NCBI GenBank assembly: GCA_903642225.1 | Contig: CAHJWI010000012.1 | Coordinates: 1-64,000 of the forward strand | Source: Acidobacteriaceae bacterium | GTDB taxonomy: Bacteria > Acidobacteriota > Terriglobia > Terriglobales > Acidobacteriaceae | Length of the DNA: 64,000 bases | Direction of reading: 5' to 3' | Part shown: positions 2,766-12,657 of the stretch, in pieces | Layout of the letters: each line of letters opens with the position of its first letter | Position numbering within the stretch: the first letter of the stretch is position 1 | Position numbers and translations under genes: made by a program | The notes under the pieces: generated by a model | The model's database searches: none | The model's input: only the letters and a program-made list of their open reading frames with translations | What the model was told of the DNA's origin: nothing

Positions 2766-5165
2766 TCATGGAGCCTTCCAGGTGTATGTGGTGATGGAGA
2801 ACGGCGGCAGCAGGTGCTGGTCGGCGGGGTGGAAGCTGGAGACTGATGTGGTAATTGGGGCAACGCGGACTTCGTTTTCGTTGCTGTCGTCGATGGAGGC
2901 GGAGGTGAGAATGGTCTGCTGCACGGCGCCTTGCGGGGCGTTGACGCCGGCAAACGTGACGGGGAGCGATGCCGTGCGGCTGAGATTCAGGACGATGAGG
3001 GAGCGCCGGCCAGGTTCGCCGAAGGCAAAGCTCTGGAGCAGGTGAGCCTCCGGGACTTTGACGTTGTCGTTGGAGCTTGTGGACTGGTTCCAGGTGGGGT
3101 CGGCGGCGGTGGTCGTAGTCTCGATGAGGTTGGCGAGGATGGTCTGATTGAGCAGGCGGAGGGCGTAGAAGGAGGGGCGGCGGCGGTCGGTTGCTCCGCC
3201 CATGTCAACGACCGCACCAAAGAGGGGTGTGGTGCGAGCGGGTCCTGAGCCATTGGGTGAAGTAAAGCCGTTGCGGAATTCGGTGAGTGCAAAGAAGCAC
3301 TGTTCGGTGATGCCGACGTCGCGGAGAGCCAAAAGCATAAGGTCCGCGACGTCGAGGGCTGCGCCCATGGAGGGGACGGTACGGTCGATGTCGGACTGTG
3401 TGACGACGGGTGAGCCGGTGAAGGTGCCGAGGTTGACCTCATAAAGACTGATATGCGTGGTAGGGTTTGCGGCATGGACGGCGTCGGCCTGCTGGCGAAG
3501 GAGGCCGCCGAGGGTGGTCCACTGCTCGGGTTGAGCGAGCATGGGACCAAAGACATTCTCAGTGTTGATTGTGTTGTTGAAGTGGGTAAAGAGGTAGGGT
3601 GCGACGGCGAGGGTGTCCGCGGCACCGTGCAGGGCGGCGGTTTGGGTGGCGGTGTGCGCGGGAACCTCGAAAAACGAGCCGGCAACGAGATCAAAGCGGG
3701 CGGAATTGAAGCTGGTGGCCAAGCGCATGGCGCGGAAGACGGTGGACGCGCGCTCTGCGTATGCGGCGGGGTCGTCAATGGTGGCTCCGGCAAAGGAACC
3801 ACGGTTCCACTGCTCATTGCCGAGCTCAAGGTGAATGCGAGGGAAAGCCTGTGTCCAGGGTTGGGGGTGGCCGAGTTTCGCGCGAAGACCACCGTAAGGA
3901 GTCGAGGTTGGGCCGGCGAGGAAGTCGATGAGGTGTCGGGCTTCGTCCGAGGTGAAGGCGGCGGGGAGGGAGAGCCACGGCTCTGTGGGTGCCTGCTCAG
4001 AGCTGACGGCCTGGGCAAGGGTAAGAAATTCCTGAAGGCCGAGACTGATGTCCTGTTGCCGAGTGGACCAGAGGGAGTAGCCGGTTCGGGGACGGCCGGC
4101 GGGTGGGGTGAGCCAGTCATCGAGCGTACTGCCAAAGTCGGTGCCGCTGTCCATGTAGCGGAGGATGCCGGGATGAAGGTCGCGGAGGGTGTCGACAATC
4201 TCATCACGAAATGCGGTCGAGTTGTGATGAGAGGGGATTGGGTCGGCGGTGAGTGAAACGTCGGCGAGCAGAAGCGATGTGGCTGCGGTGGAGAAGGAGA
4301 GGCCGGCGGTGGTCATACTGCCGGGTTGAGTCGTCAGTGTCTCCCCTGCGTGGAAGGCGAGCGTGTAAGTGCGCCAGCCGGGGTCGAGGGTGAGGGGCTT
4401 GTCAAGAAAGACCTGGCCGTTTTCGCGGCCGAGCCTGACGTGAAGGGAAGCCTTTGCTGTGAGGGGTTTGGCCTTGAAACGAAGAGTGTAGGCGCCATTC
4501 AGCCGGACGAACGAGTGGCCCGGGGTGGAGTCGAAGTAACTGTTGATGGCGGCGCGCTGGCAGGCTTTGGGTGCGTCAATGCGAAGAACCTGGTGGGCTG
4601 GAGAATTGGGAGAGAGGTCGTGCAATTCGGCACTCGTTGTGGCTCCGCAATCGAGCGTGCTCCACCAGCCTGCGGTCGGGTCGCCAGGTTGTTGCACGCG
4701 GACGATAAGGTAATCGCCATTAGCTGGGGCAGCGGTCAGTGTGGACGCGAACTGGATCGTGTAGGCATCGTTGGTCACCGTGGATCTGCGGACGGTGCCG
4801 CGGACGCCAGCTGCGGATCCTGTGGCAACTTCGAAGTTAGCGGTTGTAAGGAAGGTAGAAGGCCAGGCAGTGTGGTCGGCAGTGCACGTGGTGCGGGTGA
4901 AGGAGGTGCAGCGCAGAATACTTTGCCAGGTTTGACCCTGGAAGCCTGGGTTGCGAGCAATGAGGTTGCGGAGAATCTGGCCGGAGTCGTAGAAGTTTTG
5001 ACCGCCGAGGTTGATGCCGAAGCGCTTGACGTTGCGGTGGAGGACGCGGGTACCGATGGTGATGCGACTAGGCATCGGAGTTTGTGCGTGCAGCGGCGCT
5101 GGTGTGTGTAGAAGTGAGAGCGTGGCGAGGACGGCGCACATGCCCTTCCGCTTAGGTGAGTGCAT
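2766..5165 (-). CDS. Secreted clan GH-A-like glycoside hydrolase of the polysaccharide locus
   Basis: 799 aa from the ATG at 5165, chosen because it opens a signal peptide with a basic start (HSPKRKG) and a hydrophobic core ending in APLHA-QTP. An alternative ATG lies at 5141. After a novel N-terminal part comes a carbohydrate-binding-like beta region (~200-330), then a TIM-barrel-like part with HLELGNEQW (acid/base Glu after Asn, as in clan GH-A) and, ~140 residues later, ISLYEVNLG as possible nucleophile Glu, then a C-terminal beta domain. This resembles GH39/GH51-type retaining enzymes, but I cannot name the family. The start overlaps the ligase-like gene by 14 nt. A role in trimming or releasing the polymer is inference from context. 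Confidence 0.65.
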   Translation of the reverse strand: MHSPKRKGMCAVLATLSLLHTPAPLHAQTPMPSRITIGTRVLHRNVKRFGINLGGQNFYDSGQILRNLIARNPGFQGQTWQSILRCTSFTRTTCTADHTAWPSTFLTTANFEVATGSAAGVRGTVRRSTVTNDAYTIQFASTLTAAPANGDYLIVRVQQPGDPTAGWWSTLDCGATTSAELHDLSPNSPAHQVLRIDAPKACQRAAINSYFDSTPGHSFVRLNGAYTLRFKAKPLTAKASLHVRLGRENGQVFLDKPLTLDPGWRTYTLAFHAGETLTTQPGSMTTAGLSFSTAATSLLLADVSLTADPIPSHHNSTAFRDEIVDTLRDLHPGILRYMDSGTDFGSTLDDWLTPPAGRPRTGYSLWSTRQQDISLGLQEFLTLAQAVSSEQAPTEPWLSLPAAFTSDEARHLIDFLAGPTSTPYGGLRAKLGHPQPWTQAFPRIHLELGNEQWNRGSFAGATIDDPAAYAERASTVFRAMRLATSFNSARFDLVAGSFFEVPAHTATQTAALHGAADTLAVAPYLFTHFNNTINTENVFGPMLAQPEQWTTLGGLLRQQADAVHAANPTTHISLYEVNLGTFTGSPVVTQSDIDRTVPSMGAALDVADLMLLALRDVGITEQCFFALTEFRNGFTSPNGSGPARTTPLFGAVVDMGGATDRRRPSFYALRLLNQTILANLIETTTTAADPTWNQSTSSNDNVKVPEAHLLQSFAFGEPGRRSLIVLNLSRTASLPVTFAGVNAPQGAVQQTILTSASIDDSNENEVRVAPITTSVSSFHPADQHLLPPFSITTYTWKAP

Positions 5166-6582
5166 GGGCGAACGCGAACTGGCGTTGTTGCTGGTGGAGG
5201 CGTGTGGTTTTGACGGATTGCGCCCAGCCGGCAAGCAGGAAGAAGAGTTGAAAGGGCTGTCCGAAGAGGAAGACTGTACCGACAGTTAGCAGGATGCCCA
5301 GAAAACAGCCAAGCAATGTCAGGGCGAAAAAGCGGTCGCGCCTACCGGTGCTGCGAAGGATGGCAAGGACGAGCCGGTACACGGCGTCACCAGCGATGAC
5401 GATAAAGCTGACCATGCCAACCCAACCCTGAACAAGCCATAGAAAAAGGTACTCATTGTCCACAGAGGTGGAAGTATGGACGACGGGAAAAGCCTCACCC
5501 CAACCCCAGGCACCTCCCTGTTGTGCGATGGGGACATAGAAGTCGATAAGATCGGCGCGGTACTGTGCGGTTTGCTGCTCGCCGGACGACGGGTTAGTGC
5601 TGGTGTACGCCTTGCCTTTGACGTATAGCGCAAGGCCGGCGACAAGGCAGATCGCAACAAGAATGGAGGCATTGCGCAGCAGATTGCGTGTGCGGCCGAG
5701 GAGGGCAATGGGAAGCGCGAGGATGCAACCGAGCCACGGGCCGCGGGCCTGGGTGCTGAGGAGGGTGACGGCGAGGATGCCGAGAAGCAAGGTACGAACT
5801 TTCACGAGGTTGCCGAGCGTTTCTTTCCAGGGATGGGCAAGGCTGACCCAGACGGTAAGGATGATGCCGGTGAGAAGCATGATGCCGGCGAGTTCCGACT
5901 GGCCATATGGGCCGGCAACGCGACCGAAGCCCCAACGGAACTGCGTTTCCCAAATAAGCTTCTGGCCTGGAAAGAAGGGCTGGAAGAGAGTGGCGAACGG
6001 ATTGACGCCGATGAAGTATTCAAGGACTGAAACGAAGCAGCCGGCGGCGATGAGGACGACGATGCGGCGCACTGTCTGAACGCGTATGTCGAAGTGTTCG
6101 ATGAGGAGCTTGCCGATGAGGTAGGGAACGAGCGCCTCAAAGACGCGGTAGAACATGTTGAAGATGCCGTGGCTGATGTCATGGCCGAGAAGATGAACGG
6201 CACCGGCAGATGCAATGAAGAGGGCGATAGCGAAGTCGGATAGGGAGAGCTTAAAGGTGGGCCACAGGCGATAGATCATGGCACAGCCGAGTGGAATGGC
6301 GACAGCCTCGCTGAAGTCGATGGGCGGCAGCCCGCGGAGCTTGATGTGAAAGTAAAGGGGCAGGAGCAGGAATACGGGCAGATAGATGTTGAAGAAGATC
6401 TTCGTGAGGGAAGTTCGGAAGAGCGCAAGAACGGTGACGAGGGCGGGTACGAGGATGATGAAGTTGGACAGGAAGACGGGTTCAGTGGATACGAAGGGCT
6501 CAGCCGCAACCGGGTGTGCCGGACCCGCAATCCACAGGACTGCAGCCAGCGATTGAATGCACGCGAGGCCGGGGACAGGCAT
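5152..6582 (-). CDS. O-antigen ligase/polymerase-like membrane protein
   Basis: About 476 aa from the ATG at 6582; the open frame extends to 6918 but the extra N-terminus has no membrane character and would cross the divergent gene. No clear ribosome site supports a single start. There are around ten hydrophobic helices (FIILVPALVTVLALF, IYLPVFLLLPLYFHI, LLGILAVTLLS and others) and a large periplasmic loop after the STQARGPWLGCILALPIALLG segment, the Wzy/WaaL (Wzy_C, O-antigen ligase) arrangement with conserved Arg-Gly. Such proteins polymerise or ligate lipid-linked glycans at the periplasmic face. First gene of the leftward operon; expressed divergently from wecG-STAS. Confidence 0.75.
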   Translation of the reverse strand: MPVPGLACIQSLAAVLWIAGPAHPVAAEPFVSTEPVFLSNFIILVPALVTVLALFRTSLTKIFFNIYLPVFLLLPLYFHIKLRGLPPIDFSEAVAIPLGCAMIYRLWPTFKLSLSDFAIALFIASAGAVHLLGHDISHGIFNMFYRVFEALVPYLIGKLLIEHFDIRVQTVRRIVVLIAAGCFVSVLEYFIGVNPFATLFQPFFPGQKLIWETQFRWGFGRVAGPYGQSELAGIMLLTGIILTVWVSLAHPWKETLGNLVKVRTLLLGILAVTLLSTQARGPWLGCILALPIALLGRTRNLLRNASILVAICLVAGLALYVKGKAYTSTNPSSGEQQTAQYRADLIDFYVPIAQQGGAWGWGEAFPVVHTSTSVDNEYLFLWLVQGWVGMVSFIVIAGDAVYRLVLAILRSTGRRDRFFALTLLGCFLGILLTVGTVFLFGQPFQLFFLLAGWAQSVKTTRLHQQQRQFAFAHALT

Positions 6583-6835
6583 GCCATCACGGTACAACGG
6601 ATTGCAGGCTGTGGGGAGTACCACTTCTGTTCGGCCTAGGCGTACTGGGGAGGTACGAAGGTACCGAGACGTAAGTTCGATTGCGAGCTTCTGCGGCTTG
6701 CCCAACTGACTCAGACGGAAACTGGTGCTACACGGAAGTGGTATGTCGCAGATTGATTGAACCGGGAATACTGAGTCTCGCCGGACTCTGACGGCATGTT
6801 GCACTGCTGTTTTCTCCCGAAAGGCTGCGTGCCGT
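6583..6835. promoter_or_regulatory. Divergent intergenic region of the polysaccharide locus
   Basis: The 253 bases between the two oppositely directed glycan operons must hold both promoters. The segment is less GC-rich than the flanks. I see short AT-rich patches (around 6750-6770) but no convincing -35/-10 pair and no long inverted repeat, so no promoter is placed. Confidence 0.45.
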
Positions 6836-7984
6836 ATGGTTCGAAAAAACTCACGGGTTGTAGCGATGCTAGGCCTGCCTATTTGTAACGTCTCGATGCA
6901 GCAGGCAATCGCCAGCATTGATGGTCGAATCCAATCGGGTTGCTGCTACCAGATTGCGACGGCTAATCTGGATTTTGTGCGAAATGCGCGTAAGGATCCA
7001 GAGTTGCACAAGGTGATCTGCGATTGCGCCATGGTTCTTCCTGACGGGTACCCGTTGGTGCTGGTTTCGAAGCTTTTAGGTCGGCCACTGAAGGGGCGTT
7101 TGACCGGTGCTGATTTGACACCGGAATTAGCCAAGTTGTCGGCAGCGAAGGGCTACAGGATTTTCCTGCTCGGGTCGAGCGATGAGAATGCGTTAAAAGC
7201 GATTGAGATTTTGCAGGAGCAATACCCGGGCGCTCAGTTCGTCGGCCACTATTCGCCCGCGGCTGCGCCGCTGGACAAAATGGACAATGAGGAGATCGTT
7301 CGGCGCGTGCATGTAGCGCGGCCGGACATCTTGCTCGTGGCGTTCGGCAATCCAAAGCAGGAGTTGTGGATTCATCGCAACCGCGAACGGCTGAAGGTTC
7401 CGGTCTCGATTGGCATCGGCGGCACACTGGATATGATTGCCGGTACCACGCGACGTGCGCCGATCTTTATGCAGCAGCTGGGGATGGAGTGGATGTGGCG
7501 GATGCTGCAGGAGCCCAAGCGGCTGGCGCCGCGTTACTTTCATGACATGGTGGCGCTGGCGCGATATTTGCCGGTTGAAATGTTGGCGTCTTGGGCGCAG
7601 AGCCGGCGACAGAGTAGCGGTTCCCTGCGGATCGATCAACGCGACGGTCATTGCGTGATTGCAGTGCACAATGCGCTGACTGGCGAGCTGTGCGGGCGTT
7701 TACGTGACCTGGTGAGCGATGCCATCGCAGCAAACCAGGATGTGACCATCGACCTTTTTGGTGCGACCCGGATTGGAGCGGACGGCGTTGGAACGCTGCT
7801 GGACGTACGCCGCAGCCTAATGTCGCATGACTTGAAGCTGTACTTGCTGGGAGGCAACGAAGCAATTCAGCGACTGCTCAACGCCGGCTCACTCGGGTTC
7901 ATATTTCCAAATGAGACGATTGTTGCTCGTACGCGTTTGAGGATTCCTTTACTGGCCGCCAGCCTGCGTTCTACGCGGGTTTAG
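6836..7984 (+). CDS. WecG/TagA/CpsF glycosyltransferase fused to a STAS domain
   Basis: 382 aa. Residues ~10-235 are a GT26 (WecG/TagA/CpsF) domain: LGLPICNV, ATANLDFVRNA, MVLPDGYPLVL, LLGSSDENA, FGNPKQELWI and the end signature GIGGTLDMIAG-RAP-QLGMEWMWRM-EPKR. These enzymes add a sugar (for example ManNAcA or ManNAc) to a polyprenyl-linked acceptor at the inner membrane. Residues ~265-370 resemble an anti-sigma-antagonist STAS domain (VTIDLFGATRIGADGVGTLL, then LKLYLLGG). The usual phospho-acceptor DSSG reads GADG, so Ser phosphorylation looks impossible at that site. First gene of the rightward operon. The fusion suggests recruitment or control of glycan initiation by a partner, which is inference. 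Confidence 0.88.
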   Translation: MVRKNSRVVAMLGLPICNVSMQQAIASIDGRIQSGCCYQIATANLDFVRNARKDPELHKVICDCAMVLPDGYPLVLVSKLLGRPLKGRLTGADLTPELAKLSAAKGYRIFLLGSSDENALKAIEILQEQYPGAQFVGHYSPAAAPLDKMDNEEIVRRVHVARPDILLVAFGNPKQELWIHRNRERLKVPVSIGIGGTLDMIAGTTRRAPIFMQQLGMEWMWRMLQEPKRLAPRYFHDMVALARYLPVEMLASWAQSRRQSSGSLRIDQRDGHCVIAVHNALTGELCGRLRDLVSDAIAANQDVTIDLFGATRIGADGVGTLLDVRRSLMSHDLKLYLLGGNEAIQRLLNAGSLGFIFPNETIVARTRLRIPLLAASLRSTRV

Positions 7985-8058
7985 GTGAGAGTGCGAACGC
8001 TAACAGGTGTCCGGACGAATATGGTACGGTGCACGGAGTTTAAGGTAGAGTGAGAATC

Positions 8059-9141
8059 ATGTCAGGCCGAAACACGAGTAAGTCGGCATGGCGCGCGGCG
8101 CGGCAGGCGTTTCGCTGGTGCCTGTTTGCTGCGTGCTTCAGCCTTCGATTCGGCCCTGGCGCGTGCGCCGCACAGGCGGTGGCCAGTCCGGTTGCAGAGT
8201 CAGCGGGCGGTGTTCTGGCTGAAGCGTTGACGCCTGAGCAACGCAGCATGCTCTTGGATCCGGCTCCGGGCGGCGACGCTTACCGGCTGGGTCGCGGTGA
8301 CCTGCTGACCATTACGGTCTCCGGGCGGCCGGAGCTGACGGGCAAGCAGCCTGTGGGCCCGGACGGGGCGGTCACGCTGCCGCTTATTGGTTCGGTAGAG
8401 GTTGTGGACAGAACTCGGGAGCAGGCAGCCGGGCTTCTGCGAGAAAAGTTGTTGCAGTACTACACGGACCCCGCTGTGACGGTGACGGTGGACACGTATA
8501 CCTCAAATCGGGTGCTGCTGCTGGGAGCTGTGGAGCGGCCCGGACCGTATGTGTTCGAGCGTCAGCCGACGTTGTTGGACTTGCTTGCGCGCGGTGGATC
8601 GATCAGCCGTGTACAGACCGGTAGTACGCCAAACTTCACCGGGGTCACCGGGCAAGGTATCCGGGCACTGCCGGAACGCGCTGTGATTTATCGCGGTGCG
8701 GACACAGCCATTACGATCGATGTTGGCGCGATGGCTAAGCAGGGGAGCCTGCTCGCGAATATCCGTTTGCAGCGGGATGATGTCGTGTATGTGACGTCGC
8801 CGGAGGACAGATTCATTTCTATCCTGGGGCAGGTGCAACGGCCGGGGGCGCAACCGTTGGAGCACGAGACGACGCTGGCTCGGCTTTTGTCCAACGCTGG
8901 TGGATTGACGAAGGAAGCAGGGACGAATCCGATGCTCCGTATTGTGGAGCCGAGTACGGGCAAGACTCGTTTAGTGGCGTTCAAGGATGTGCTGAATCCG
9001 GCTTCAACTGAGATTCCGCTTCGTTCGGGTGACATTCTTTTTGTGCCGCAGAGCAGATTTAACAGTGCCGCTTATGTGTTGGACCGGCTTTCGCCCGTGT
9101 TCAATCTATTTACGACGGCGGCGTTTATTACACAACGGTAG
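8059..9141 (+). CDS. Wza-like polysaccharide export protein with SLBB domains
   Basis: About 360 aa. ATG at 8059 was chosen over GTG at 8050; TAAGG and GAG lie upstream. A signal-like N-terminus (FRWCLFAACFSLRFGPGACA, with a possible lipobox Cys) precedes the poly_export domain (DAYRLGRGDLLTITVSGRPEL ... PDGAVTLPLIGSV). Two SLBB repeats follow, recognisable as LLGAVERPGPYVFERQ and ILGQVQRPGAQPLEHE with their LLARGGSIS and LLSNAGGLT partners. Proteins of this family form the outer-membrane channel of Wzx/Wzy or ABC capsule/EPS systems. It lies 75 nt after wecG-STAS and just ahead of the Wzz/Wzc-like gene, its expected inner-membrane partner. Confidence 0.92.
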   Translation: MSGRNTSKSAWRAARQAFRWCLFAACFSLRFGPGACAAQAVASPVAESAGGVLAEALTPEQRSMLLDPAPGGDAYRLGRGDLLTITVSGRPELTGKQPVGPDGAVTLPLIGSVEVVDRTREQAAGLLREKLLQYYTDPAVTVTVDTYTSNRVLLLGAVERPGPYVFERQPTLLDLLARGGSISRVQTGSTPNFTGVTGQGIRALPERAVIYRGADTAITIDVGAMAKQGSLLANIRLQRDDVVYVTSPEDRFISILGQVQRPGAQPLEHETTLARLLSNAGGLTKEAGTNPMLRIVEPSTGKTRLVAFKDVLNPASTEIPLRSGDILFVPQSRFNSAAYVLDRLSPVFNLFTTAAFITQR

Positions 9142-9194: not shown

Positions 9195-11504
9195 ATGGCA
9201 GGCCGGGATGAGACTCCGCGGCGGAAACAGGACTGGATGAGCGAGTTGACCAAATCGAGGGAGCCTGAGTTCCTGGCTGTGGATGCCATCACTGCGCGCG
9301 CGCATTCTAGTGGGGCACCCGTATTTCGATTAAATTGGAAGCGTGCCTTGCAGATGCATCCGGGAGTTGCGGGCGTTGCGGCGGCGCTGGTCTTTGCTGC
9401 GGTGTTCGGGTTTGGCCTGGTGACCCCGACGCAGTACCAAGCGAAGGCGTTGTTCTCTGTATCTCCGGTGGTCACGACGCTTGTTCCGCAGGGAGGCATA
9501 CCGGGGACTGTGGATGTGTCACAGTTTGACAGCAGCATGCAGCAGGACGTGGAGACGCTGCAGCGCGAGGACACGGTAGAAGCTGCAGTAAAGACGTTGC
9601 CGACGGGGGCGTGGAGGAAGCCCAAGGAGTCAGTCGCTGCTTCGACATTGCGCATGGAGCATGCGCTGGGTGTATCGAGGGTTGGAACAAGTCTGCAGAT
9701 TGCTGCCACGCTGAGTGGACCCACGCCGAAGGATGCGGCGCAGGGTTTAGCAGCAATCTCCGCGCAGTTCCTAAAGACCGTGCACCGCGAAGAAGACGGT
9801 CGAGCGACGGAACGCGTTCAGCTGCTGAAGGAGGAGGCTGGCCGGCTGGATAGCAATTTACAACAGGACCGGGATGCCGCGGCTGCACTCGCTGGAGAGC
9901 TGGGCGTGTCGCGGTTGAGAGAGAATGAGCGCACACCCGCGGACATGAGCGCGGATCAGCTTCGATCGCAGCTTGCGGAGTTGCAGCGAGCGCGTGCGTT
10001 TGCGCAGGCTGGCATCAGCACCTCGCAGGCAGGCGGTATCGACGATGCTAGCAACAACGCGTCATCCGTTGCAGGTTTGGTTTCGACGCTGAATATTCGG
10101 AAGGCATCTCTCCAGAGTCAGATGGCAGGGATGACAGTCAGGAATCCGATTTATCAGCAGAACGCGGCTGAGTTGAAGGCGATCGATGGCGAACTAGCTT
10201 CTGCGCTGAGTCGGAGCGATGCTGAGCAGTTGCGCCGGCAACGGGAGTTGCGCAGCCGGAACGTGAGTGGGGTGTCACACGAAGAGCAGAGACTGCAACA
10301 CCAGCTTGTGCAGGACACAAGCGGGATGACCGGCGTTGCTGCAAAGCTGGAGCACTACTCTGAGCTCTCCCACGAGATTGATCGTTTGCAGACTCGGTCG
10401 GGTTTGGTGCGGGACGCGATCAGCAGCACCTTGCTGCAGAGTAATGCGCCGAGCGGGGTGAATCTGGTGGTGTCACCCACGGATGCGGAGTTGCAGGCCG
10501 GAGGTAAGGGCCGGCTGGCGATGCTGGCAGCGTTGCCCTTGGCGTCACTTGCGGGTCTTGTGGCTGCGATCTTTGCGTACCGTCGGGATGGGCGAGTGTT
10601 TTTAGCGGTGGACCTGGAGGCGGTACTCGGAATCCGGCCGATGGCTGTGCTGCCTGCTGCGTCTGAGGTGTCAGACGCCATTGCGGAGCAGGGAATGCTG
10701 CGGATGGCAGGGAGCATCGAGAGCGCATTCCTCAAGAACCGCTCAAAGACCTTTGTGTTTACCGCAACGAGCGTAGACAGCGATGTGGAGGAGCTTGTGT
10801 TCCGGGTACAGGGTAAGCTGCGCGACTTGGGGTACTCCGCTCTATGGGTGGGAGCAGAGACACTGCTTCGCGCCGAGAAAGACTTCGAGCAAATCTATGG
10901 GAGGGGGCCGAACAGCACTAGTGGTTTACGTTTTTCTGATGCGCCGGAAGCCGATGGTTCGGTACCCGAGGGAATTGCCATTCAGCGGCTTAATTGGCTG
11001 AAACGAGATTACGACATGGTGCTGATCGACGCGCCGCCGCTGCTCCAATCCGCGTTGGCCGAATATGCTGTGCGGCGAACGGACGCGACCATTCTGGTAT
11101 CTGAGAGTGGAGTAACAACGCGTGAGGACTTGGTGCAGGCTTCTGGCTTGCTGGAGCAGCTTGGAACGCAGGGTATTGGTGCTGTTCTTCAAGAATTGCG
11201 TATGCGCTATGCGGCACCGGGATACAAAAATGCTTTAGCAAAAGCCGAGGAGCGGGCTGCGCGACAGGTAAACCGTAAGCCAATAGACAACGCAGGTGAG
11301 TGGCAGGTCTTGAACGTCGGGACTATGGACGAATTGCGCGTACCGGGCGATCCGATGGCGCGCAGCATATCACGGGTTCGTCCGGCGCGTGCGCGTTCGG
11401 CTGTTGGTGGGCCGCGAGTGGTAGGCACCTCAAAAGAGGAGATTTGGGACGAGGATTCCGCACGTCTGGTGGACGAAGCAGCCTATTCCTTTCGCGAGGA
11501 GTAA
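9195..11504 (+). CDS. Wzz/Wzc-like polysaccharide co-polymerase with degenerate BY-kinase domain
   Basis: 769 aa; an in-frame ATG at 9237 with AGGA upstream is an alternative start. A first membrane helix (~60-78, GVAAALVFAAVFGFGLV), a long periplasmic coiled-coil stretch (GNVR-like, ~170-420) and a second helix (~445-463, LASLAGLVAAIFAYRR) give the Wzz fold. The cytoplasmic tail aligns with a Wzc/BY tyrosine kinase, but where the Walker A P-loop should be it reads FTATSVDSDVEELVF, with no GKS/T. The A' Asp motif is missing too. Only Walker B-like YDMVLIDAPPLL is kept, and there is no C-terminal tyrosine cluster. Probably controls chain length without kinase activity. Confidence 0.88.
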   Translation: MAGRDETPRRKQDWMSELTKSREPEFLAVDAITARAHSSGAPVFRLNWKRALQMHPGVAGVAAALVFAAVFGFGLVTPTQYQAKALFSVSPVVTTLVPQGGIPGTVDVSQFDSSMQQDVETLQREDTVEAAVKTLPTGAWRKPKESVAASTLRMEHALGVSRVGTSLQIAATLSGPTPKDAAQGLAAISAQFLKTVHREEDGRATERVQLLKEEAGRLDSNLQQDRDAAAALAGELGVSRLRENERTPADMSADQLRSQLAELQRARAFAQAGISTSQAGGIDDASNNASSVAGLVSTLNIRKASLQSQMAGMTVRNPIYQQNAAELKAIDGELASALSRSDAEQLRRQRELRSRNVSGVSHEEQRLQHQLVQDTSGMTGVAAKLEHYSELSHEIDRLQTRSGLVRDAISSTLLQSNAPSGVNLVVSPTDAELQAGGKGRLAMLAALPLASLAGLVAAIFAYRRDGRVFLAVDLEAVLGIRPMAVLPAASEVSDAIAEQGMLRMAGSIESAFLKNRSKTFVFTATSVDSDVEELVFRVQGKLRDLGYSALWVGAETLLRAEKDFEQIYGRGPNSTSGLRFSDAPEADGSVPEGIAIQRLNWLKRDYDMVLIDAPPLLQSALAEYAVRRTDATILVSESGVTTREDLVQASGLLEQLGTQGIGAVLQELRMRYAAPGYKNALAKAEERAARQVNRKPIDNAGEWQVLNVGTMDELRVPGDPMARSISRVRPARARSAVGGPRVVGTSKEEIWDEDSARLVDEAAYSFREE

Positions 11505-11556: not shown

Positions 11557-12657
11557 ATGTCGACGCCGTGGTTGAGTGTTGTTGTGATCGGGCGTAATGA
11601 GGGGGAGCGCCTTGCACGTTGCCTGGATTCGGTGCGAGCGATGCGAGCCGCCGGAGACACGTGTCCTATACCAGAAGGGACAGCCGAGACAGCCGGAAAT
11701 GCCGTGGTGGCCATGGAGGCCGAGGCTGGGAACTATCCACAAAGTGACGTATCCGAGCGATGCGTTGAATTGATCTACGTCGACTCTGGTTCCACCGACG
11801 GCAGTGTGGCACTGGCTATGGGTAGAGGTGCACGGGTACTTGCATTGCATGTGGAACAGCCCACTGCAGCGCGTGGGCGCAATGCTGGATGGCGTGTCGC
11901 CTCGGCTGAGACAGTGCTGTTTCTGGATGGCGACACGGTGTTGCACCCCAACTTTGTCGCGGAAGCGATGTCTGCCTTTGAAGAGGTGGACACGGCTGTG
12001 GTCTGGGGACACCGGAGGGAGCTGTTTCCGCACCACTCGGTCTACAACCGGGTGATGGATCTGGATTGGGTGTATGCGCCGGGGTACACAGCGTTTTGCG
12101 GTGGGGATGCGTTATTCCGGCGGCAAGCGTTGGAGGCGGTGGACGGTTTTGATGAAACTCTGATCGCCGGGGAGGAGCCCGAACTTTGCCGACGACTGTT
12201 GTCTGCGGGATATCGTGTTCTGCACTTGGACCTGGCGATGACGGGGCATGATCTGGCGGTGGCGCGATTTAGCCAGTACTGGCGTCGCGCTACGCGAGCC
12301 GGGCACGCCTACGCAGAGGTGGCTGAGCGATTTCGGGGAACACGCGACCCTTTCTGGAGTGGTGAGGTCGACCGGAATCGGCGAAGGGCACTGGTACTAG
12401 TTGGTTTGGTGCTGGCTGGCTCACTGCTGAGCGTTGTTATAGGTAGGGTTCTACCAGTGCTGATAGTTTCCGGACTGCTGGTCGCACTGGCTGTGCGAAC
12501 GGCCTGGAAGTCGCGGTGGAAGGGCGGGAATGCCGTAACGCTGCTGCTCTACGGTGTTCATTCCCATTTGCAACAGATCCCGATTTACGGAGGCCAGCTT
12601 CAGTTTAGGCGGAACAAGCGAGCCGGACGAGCCAGTGGGTTGGTGGAATACAAATGA
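11557..12657 (+). CDS. Glycosyltransferase family 2 with C-terminal membrane segments
   Basis: 366 aa. The GT2 A-fold is visible from residue ~5: LSVVVIGRNEGERLARCLDS, then LIYVDSGSTDGSV, a nucleotide-binding RGRNAGW and the DxD in VLFLDGDTVLHP; CGGDALFRRQALEAVDGFDE is the acceptor-side motif. Compared with common GT2 proteins there is an insert of ~35 residues between the first two motifs. Two hydrophobic helices near the C-terminus (ALVLVGLVLAGSLLSVVIG, VLPVLIVSGLLVALAV) anchor it to the inner membrane. It starts 52 nt after the co-polymerase gene and is the last clear gene of the rightward operon. The sugar donor is unknown. Confidence 0.87.
   Translation: MSTPWLSVVVIGRNEGERLARCLDSVRAMRAAGDTCPIPEGTAETAGNAVVAMEAEAGNYPQSDVSERCVELIYVDSGSTDGSVALAMGRGARVLALHVEQPTAARGRNAGWRVASAETVLFLDGDTVLHPNFVAEAMSAFEEVDTAVVWGHRRELFPHHSVYNRVMDLDWVYAPGYTAFCGGDALFRRQALEAVDGFDETLIAGEEPELCRRLLSAGYRVLHLDLAMTGHDLAVARFSQYWRRATRAGHAYAEVAERFRGTRDPFWSGEVDRNRRRALVLVGLVLAGSLLSVVIGRVLPVLIVSGLLVALAVRTAWKSRWKGGNAVTLLLYGVHSHLQQIPIYGGQLQFRRNKRAGRASGLVEYK

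Follow-up and report, generated by a model that had tools for sequence, protein, structure and literature searches.

A WecG/TagA-type glycosyltransferase fused to STAS domains recurs in four bacterial phyla and may be a direct target of partner switching

Initiating phosphosugar transfer precedes the step catalyzed by the glycosyltransferase TagA. In the published account of this enzyme, TagA transfers N-acetylmannosamine onto lipid-linked N-acetylglucosamine, which is termed the first committed step, Thr37, Asp65 and Arg221 of the C-terminal appendage are named as catalytic residues, and the appendage is described as required for both catalysis and membrane association (PMC6493773). Glycosyltransferase-STAS proteins as such are already in print: according to a review, the Anabaena glycosyltransferase all4160 carries STAS at its N terminus, and the title of the paper cited there, Wang 2007, links such genes to the heterocyst envelope polysaccharide (PMC8256260), and a second source refers to all4160 as a probable glycosyltransferase needed for the synthesis of this polysaccharide and regulated by SigC and SigE (PMC4390870). 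Two further polysaccharide-linked STAS proteins, SypA and HmpV, are presented in their sources without a known target (PMC10120452, PMC8256260). Here we analyze a gene that encodes a WecG/TagA/CpsF enzyme fused to a C-terminal STAS domain (6836..7984, + strand). It lies in a window of 64,000 nucleotides from an Acidobacteriaceae bacterium (assembly GCA_903642225.1, contig CAHJWI010000012.1, positions 1 to 64,000). A preliminary description of this DNA knew of no mechanism for such a fusion, a statement that needs qualifying in view of all4160; for the WecG-STAS family, or for the SpoIIE/RsbW cassette that adjoins some of its members, we found no description in the literature searched, which omits most subscription papers. 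Judging from sequence, gene neighbors and predicted structure, we see an even chance that the glycosyltransferase of this family is a direct output of a partner switch, and that in the lineage of the window it has become phospho-blind, with the STAS domain serving there as a fixed or docking element.

The fusion gene is a single open reading frame (ORF) of 382 amino acids, exactly with the coordinates, length and strand first proposed. Pfam recognizes the WecG/TagA/CpsF domain (Glyco_tran_WecG, PF03808; family GT26) at residues 65-234 (7028..7537, + strand; E 1.8e-58) and the STAS domain (PF01740) at residues 265-358 (7628..7909, + strand; E 9.7e-9; score 35.4 bits, cut-off 22.6). The enzyme part also reaches 133.3 bits with the NCBIfam model of the WecG/TagA/CpsF superfamily (TIGR00696, cut-off 69), and the STAS domain stays below the NCBIfam model of anti-sigma-factor antagonists (TIGR00377, 25.7 bits against a curated cut-off of 53.45). 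The AlphaFold2 model of the protein, built on a family alignment of 79 rows, has a mean predicted local distance difference test score (pLDDT) of 92.4 and a predicted template modeling score (pTM) of 0.90. When this model was searched with Foldseek, the top matches were TagA/TarA (7mpk, 5wb4; E ~1e-17), followed by the anti-sigma-factor antagonists TM1442, SpoIIAA and RsbV (E ~1e-5). Model and Foldseek matches together rule out a different C-terminal fold, and the STAS assignment made from the sequence holds. The pTM of 0.90 suggests that the two predicted domains are held in a fixed relative pose; for comparison, the model of a Chloroflexus fusion has a pTM of 0.82 and a low-confidence linker. 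The spacing between the RY motif of the enzyme and the first STAS domain (STAS1) has a median of 26 residues in Acidobacteriota (n=32) and of 36 residues in Chloroflexota (n=27).

The catalytic residues of TagA are kept. Alignment to the TagA chain of 7mpk places T42, D70 and R229 of the window protein at Thr37, Asp65 and Arg221, respectively, with T42 falling just upstream of the Pfam WecG match. Over the 79 alignment rows, D70 and R229 are invariant and T42 is conserved in at least 90%. The gene product is probably an active WecG/TagA-type glycosyltransferase. The 'glycan initiation' of the preliminary description is loose wording for what is better called the first committed step (PMC6493773). 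The C-terminal appendage corresponds to residues 218-253 (7487..7594, + strand), predicted by AlphaFold2 as helices 218-225 and 227-253. The second helix runs into the STAS domain, whose first strand starts at residue 263. In this model, the STAS domain at the end of the appendage appears well placed to influence it.

We scanned a genome collection for the same domain order and obtained 253 matching stretches and 185 relatives, the best 80 of which were kept. Both domains lie in one frame in 78 of these best 80 loci, which rules out a frameshift or an assembly artifact; the other two (loci L065 and L114) were excluded since their C-terminal parts, on reading, are not STAS. Together with the window, the 78 fusion loci form the 79 rows of the family alignment (A2), and all 79 match both PF03808 and PF01740 at E <=0.01. 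The recurrence for which a search had been proposed is thus found in four phyla: Acidobacteriota, Chloroflexota, Armatimonadota and Verrucomicrobiota. In even samples of whole genomes, matches run through the STAS domain in 6 of 396 Acidobacteriota, including the genome of the window, and in 12 of 301 Chloroflexota, including the centre genome. Among Verrucomicrobiota, 17 of 288 genomes have matches that extend to at least position 460 of the 488 model positions, as do 13 of 201 genomes among Armatimonadota; further matches in these two phyla stop at about 345-387, as expected for a single STAS domain. Profiles confirmed the fusion in 18 of 20 Verrucomicrobiota and in all 16 Armatimonadota regions, some of the latter being loci already present in the genome-collection scan. 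According to the profile search, Acidobacteriota fusions carry a single STAS domain, and tandem STAS domains (WecG-STAS-STAS) occur in all 12 Chloroflexota regions, in 13 of the 18 from Verrucomicrobiota and in 9 of the 16 from Armatimonadota. Three loci whose titles give no phylum (L078, L081, L088) were counted as Armatimonadota on the basis of tree and gene order, and some other phylum names were inferred from the title of the centre genome. The fusion of a locus titled Rhodanobacteraceae (L037) groups with Acidobacteriota and probably reflects a binning error. Directly after one Verrucomicrobiota fusion, the opposite strand holds a STAS-containing ORF of 417 amino acids (L266:10769-12019).

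In a FastTree tree of 174 rows (96 fused and 78 unfused, near-copies included), the fused label changes 3 times, compared with a mean of 57 after shuffling; in an IQ-TREE tree of 61 rows it changes 4 times. In both trees the fused rows were collected by similarity to a fused query, and L114 is the sole unfused row from Verrucomicrobiota or Armatimonadota. A single strict fused clade is rejected (P-value 0.004, approximately unbiased test), as the STAS-less L065, L114 and L217 nest inside. Common origin with few losses is the simplest reading, and several gains are also possible. The verrucomicrobial L114 (L114:235-2439, 734 amino acids) is a WecG relative whose C-terminal part by eye resembles a group 1 glycosyltransferase and not STAS.

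The phospho-acceptor site divides the family. When aligned to the canonical D-S-S/T-G site, with the free STAS protein of a Chloroflexus islandicus locus (L099) as the reference, the window protein reads Gly-Ala-Asp-Gly at residues 314-317 (7775..7786, + strand), with Ala at the acceptor position and Asp one residue further. The GADG initially read in place of DSSG is therefore there, but the suggestion that it could provide an Asp-mimetic acceptor does not survive the alignment. In SypA, the phosphorylated Ser56 directly follows an Asp (PMC10120452; position read from mutagenic primers). With Ala as the acceptor residue, the STAS domain of the window probably resembles the unphosphorylated state. 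After removal of 14 duplicate loci, Asp-Ser/Thr is present in STAS1 of 27 of 27 distinct sequences from Chloroflexota, 8 of 17 from Armatimonadota, 7 of 19 from Verrucomicrobiota and none of 48 from Acidobacteriota (47 loci of the scan, one of which is the locus titled Rhodanobacteraceae, and the window). The second STAS domain (STAS2) has Asp-Ser/Thr in 15 of 15 Verrucomicrobiota, 3 of 9 Armatimonadota and 1 of 27 Chloroflexota sequences, and in the latter phylum 26 of 27 have Ser/Thr without Asp. One STAS domain per recovered tandem thus keeps the canonical site, namely STAS1 in Chloroflexota and STAS2 in Verrucomicrobiota. The other copy in these tandems mostly retains Ser/Thr and not Asp. 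Switch-type STAS domains usually have Asp-Ser, and on this ground the acceptor was presumably lost in Acidobacteriota rather than gained elsewhere.

Most Chloroflexota fusions adjoin genes of a partner switch. In C. islandicus, a Bac_transf phosphosugar transferase is followed by the WecG-STAS-STAS fusion, a nucleotidyltransferase/hexapeptide/Bac_transf protein, a free STAS protein, a GAF-SpoIIE protein, an RsbW-type HATPase_c_2 protein, a response regulator, a family 2 glycosyltransferase (GT2) and a Wzx-like flippase. A 4-nucleotide overlap joins the stop of the fusion to the next ORF, and another of the same length joins the SpoIIE gene to the RsbW gene, which suggests an operon. In 9 of the 12 Chloroflexota fusion loci (20-kb regions), the fusion is followed on its own strand, at a distance of up to about 4.2 kb, by free STAS, SpoIIE and RsbW genes. 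No SpoIIE gene was found beside 12 unfused WecG loci, one per Chloroflexota fusion genome, and none of the three genes was found at 20 further unfused WecG loci, which were taken from other Chloroflexota genomes. Overall, 63 of the 79 A2 loci have at least 5.5 kb downstream. SpoIIE and/or RsbW genes are found in 12 of them, all with Asp-Ser, and in none of the 45 loci without Asp-Ser; the other six Asp-Ser loci (four Armatimonadota, two Chloroploca) lack SpoIIE/RsbW. Adding the four loci with a match on a shorter downstream stretch (67 of 79 in total) brings the loci with SpoIIE/RsbW to 16, again all with Asp-Ser. The link to a partner switch that had been proposed is hence supported in the Chloroflexota relatives, which keep Asp-Ser mostly beside SpoIIE/RsbW genes, and not in the window itself.

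These data suggest how the family may work. Most likely, it originated when a glycosyltransferase was brought under direct partner-switch control. In Chloroflexota, the fused STAS would be the substrate of an RsbW-type kinase, which would bind it and phosphorylate its Asp-Ser site; a SpoIIE-type phosphatase would undo the phosphorylation, and the small free STAS protein would vie with the fusion for the kinase. Either kinase binding or the phosphate may gate the appendage, and hence sugar transfer. In Acidobacteriota, the STAS domain would probably be fixed and phospho-blind, in a state like the unphosphorylated one, and may hold the appendage or serve to dock the enzyme to further components of the Wzx/Wzy-type machinery. 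For the STAS domain of the window, a constitutive docking domain is the likeliest reading. By analogy with the S56A mutant of Vibrio fischeri SypA, which stays active despite the kinase SypE (PMC10120452), the window enzyme would be enabled, or else docked, at all times. We infer in this scheme the contact between kinase and STAS, the direction of control, the effect on catalysis, the docking partner and the loss rather than the gain of the acceptor. The more specific claim, that RsbW and SpoIIE control a WecG-type glycosyltransferase directly through its fused tandem STAS, switching surface polysaccharide post-translationally, and that one lineage was hard-wired by acceptor loss, falls somewhat short of an even chance.

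Several observations weigh against partner-switch control. All A2 loci with SpoIIE or RsbW are from Chloroflexota, and the association of Asp-Ser with the cassette amounts in essence to a single between-phyla contrast, not 63 independent points. Even within this phylum, 3 of the 12 fusion loci (the Chloroploca-type L192-L194) have no free STAS, SpoIIE or RsbW gene in their 20-kb regions. Moreover, proximity to RsbW and STAS genes is not specific to the fusion, since 6 of the 12 unfused WecG paralogs of the fusion genomes (L207-L210, L213, L215) also have such neighbors: a free STAS gene and one or two genes of the RsbW type, at up to about 4.5 kb, and no SpoIIE. The genomes of the 20 further unfused WecG loci were hand-picked for long enough contigs and are not a random sample. 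Two Chloroflexota genomes have as many as 37 and 44 HATPase_c_2 matches, which makes chance adjacency likelier. Outside Chloroflexota, SpoIIE/RsbW genes were found in none of 16 Armatimonadota regions, despite Asp-Ser in 8 of 17 STAS1. SpoIIE and free STAS genes, with no RsbW, accompany 3 of 18 Verrucomicrobiota fusions: upstream on the fusion strand in L268, both on the opposite strand in L270, and with SpoIIE on the opposite strand in L279. Several of the regions from these two phyla are short, being cut by contig ends. Finally, the SpoIIE/RsbW profiles were built from cassette members and may miss divergent homologs elsewhere.

The fused STAS may instead never have been a phospho-switch, but rather a structural or oligomerization module that stabilizes the appendage or gathers polysaccharide enzymes, with the Chloroflexota cassette having another target, such as its own free STAS. 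Such a role would fit the canonical site of the free STAS protein in the C. islandicus cassette, the rigid predicted pose and an acceptor residue that is highly variable in Acidobacteriota and Armatimonadota. It would also fit the neighborhoods, since SpoIIE/RsbW genes were found neither beside the Armatimonadota fusions, nor beside the window fusion (no profile match over 8 kb downstream and 6.8 kb upstream), nor near the other Acidobacteriota fusions (same profiles, A2 loci). Nevertheless, a structural role needs no acceptor, and Asp-Ser is kept in every distinct Chloroflexota STAS1 (27 of 27) and every recovered Verrucomicrobiota STAS2 (15 of 15), so that we regard this explanation as unlikely, although it deserves serious attention. 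Control could also flow in the reverse direction, with the fused STAS as a sensor: by titrating an RsbW-type kinase or an anti-sigma factor, it would report polysaccharide synthesis to transcription. A STAS domain without acceptor could still bind a kinase permanently, and possible partners are encoded in the genome of the window (G000), which has four PF01740 matches, the fused STAS among them: contig C21 has a STAS/HATPase_c_2 pair (55.1-55.9 kb), and contig C8 has a stressosome-like group (20.8-24.3 kb) with two STAS, four HATPase_c_2 (one under the cut-off) and one SpoIIE match. However, no RsbW-type gene was found near the window fusion or the other Acidobacteriota fusions, and no sigma factor is present among the nine annotated genes of the Chloroflexus locus, which leaves this reverse flow improbable.

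In the lineage of the window, the STAS domain could also be a functionless relic, as Asp-Ser is absent in 48 of 48 Acidobacteriota sequences and, in most of the listed pairs, the STAS part changes more quickly than the enzyme part. Yet the fold is predicted with high confidence and the Pfam STAS model is matched by 79 of 79 alignment members. In addition, the ratio of nonsynonymous to synonymous substitution rates (dN/dS) of the STAS domain is defined for 37 of the 40 listed Acidobacteriota pairs, with values of 0.03-0.41 that mostly exceed those of the enzyme domain; these pairs overlap, none includes the window and dS is saturated (>1) in many, which also limits what they lend to a fixed, functional STAS. 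Within the limits of saturated dS and of the pair set, such low values speak against a relic, which we consider very improbable.

The position of the fusion gene at the head of a polysaccharide operon, as originally described, agrees with the genes downstream on the same strand. These encode a Wza-like polysaccharide export protein (8050..9141, +; Poly_export and SLBB, Pfam), a Wzc-like co-polymerase with a degenerate ATPase part (9195..11504, +; profiles, with no Walker A pattern found by pattern search) and a GT2 glycosyltransferase (11557..12657, +; Pfam). The opposite strand of the window holds another GT2 gene and a divergent Wzy/O-antigen ligase family gene (5152..6918, -; longest ORF, Pfam). 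The longest ORF of the latter overlaps the start of the fusion gene, and its true start is probably further in. In 48 Acidobacteriota loci, the next gene on the same strand is GT2 in 15, Wzy-like in 15, Wza-like in 6, Wzc-like in 1, and other or unclustered in 11. In the Wzc-like cluster of the Acidobacteriota fusion loci, the Walker A pattern ([GAS]x(3,4)GK[ST] beyond residue 350) is absent in 37 of 38 members, window included, in a search with no positive control and with three members that are too short. The Wzc-like co-polymerase may thus be a pseudo-kinase that shares operons with a phospho-blind STAS. Two other neighbor clusters are a sigma-54 activator, upstream of the fusion on the opposite strand in 10 loci (for example L047:5509-6966, -), and, separately, a NusG-like gene in 8 fusion loci.

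The WecG-STAS family names a candidate target class for polysaccharide-linked STAS proteins, and its natural forms, putatively switchable in Chloroflexota and locked where the acceptor is missing, would allow one to test directly whether polysaccharide synthesis is controlled after translation. Among described systems, Thermoanaerobacter italicus TagA (7mpk, 5wb4) has in common with the window protein the fold, the catalytic Thr and Asp, the Arg of the appendage and the C-terminal appendage itself; the TagA chain ends at the appendage, whereas the window protein continues into STAS. Like the WecG-STAS family, all4160 combines glycosyltransferase and STAS in one protein with a role in polysaccharide, as far as published descriptions can be compared. 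Its STAS domain is N-terminal instead of C-terminal, and these descriptions mention no kinase/phosphatase cassette. The SpoIIAA/SpoIIAB/SpoIIE and RsbV/RsbW switches share the STAS fold, and SpoIIE and HATPase_c_2 genes adjoin most Chloroflexota fusions. The canonical output of such switches is a sigma factor, which the nine genes of the Chloroflexus locus do not include, and the window protein is without acceptor. In Nostoc punctiforme, the review links the HmpU/V/W partner switch to motility and polysaccharide and describes HmpV as a STAS-only protein, unlike the fused STAS (PMC8256260). SypA is also a free STAS protein, whereas the window family has STAS and enzyme in one chain. If the glycosyltransferase is indeed a direct partner-switch output, free STAS regulators such as SypA may likewise target a glycosyltransferase.
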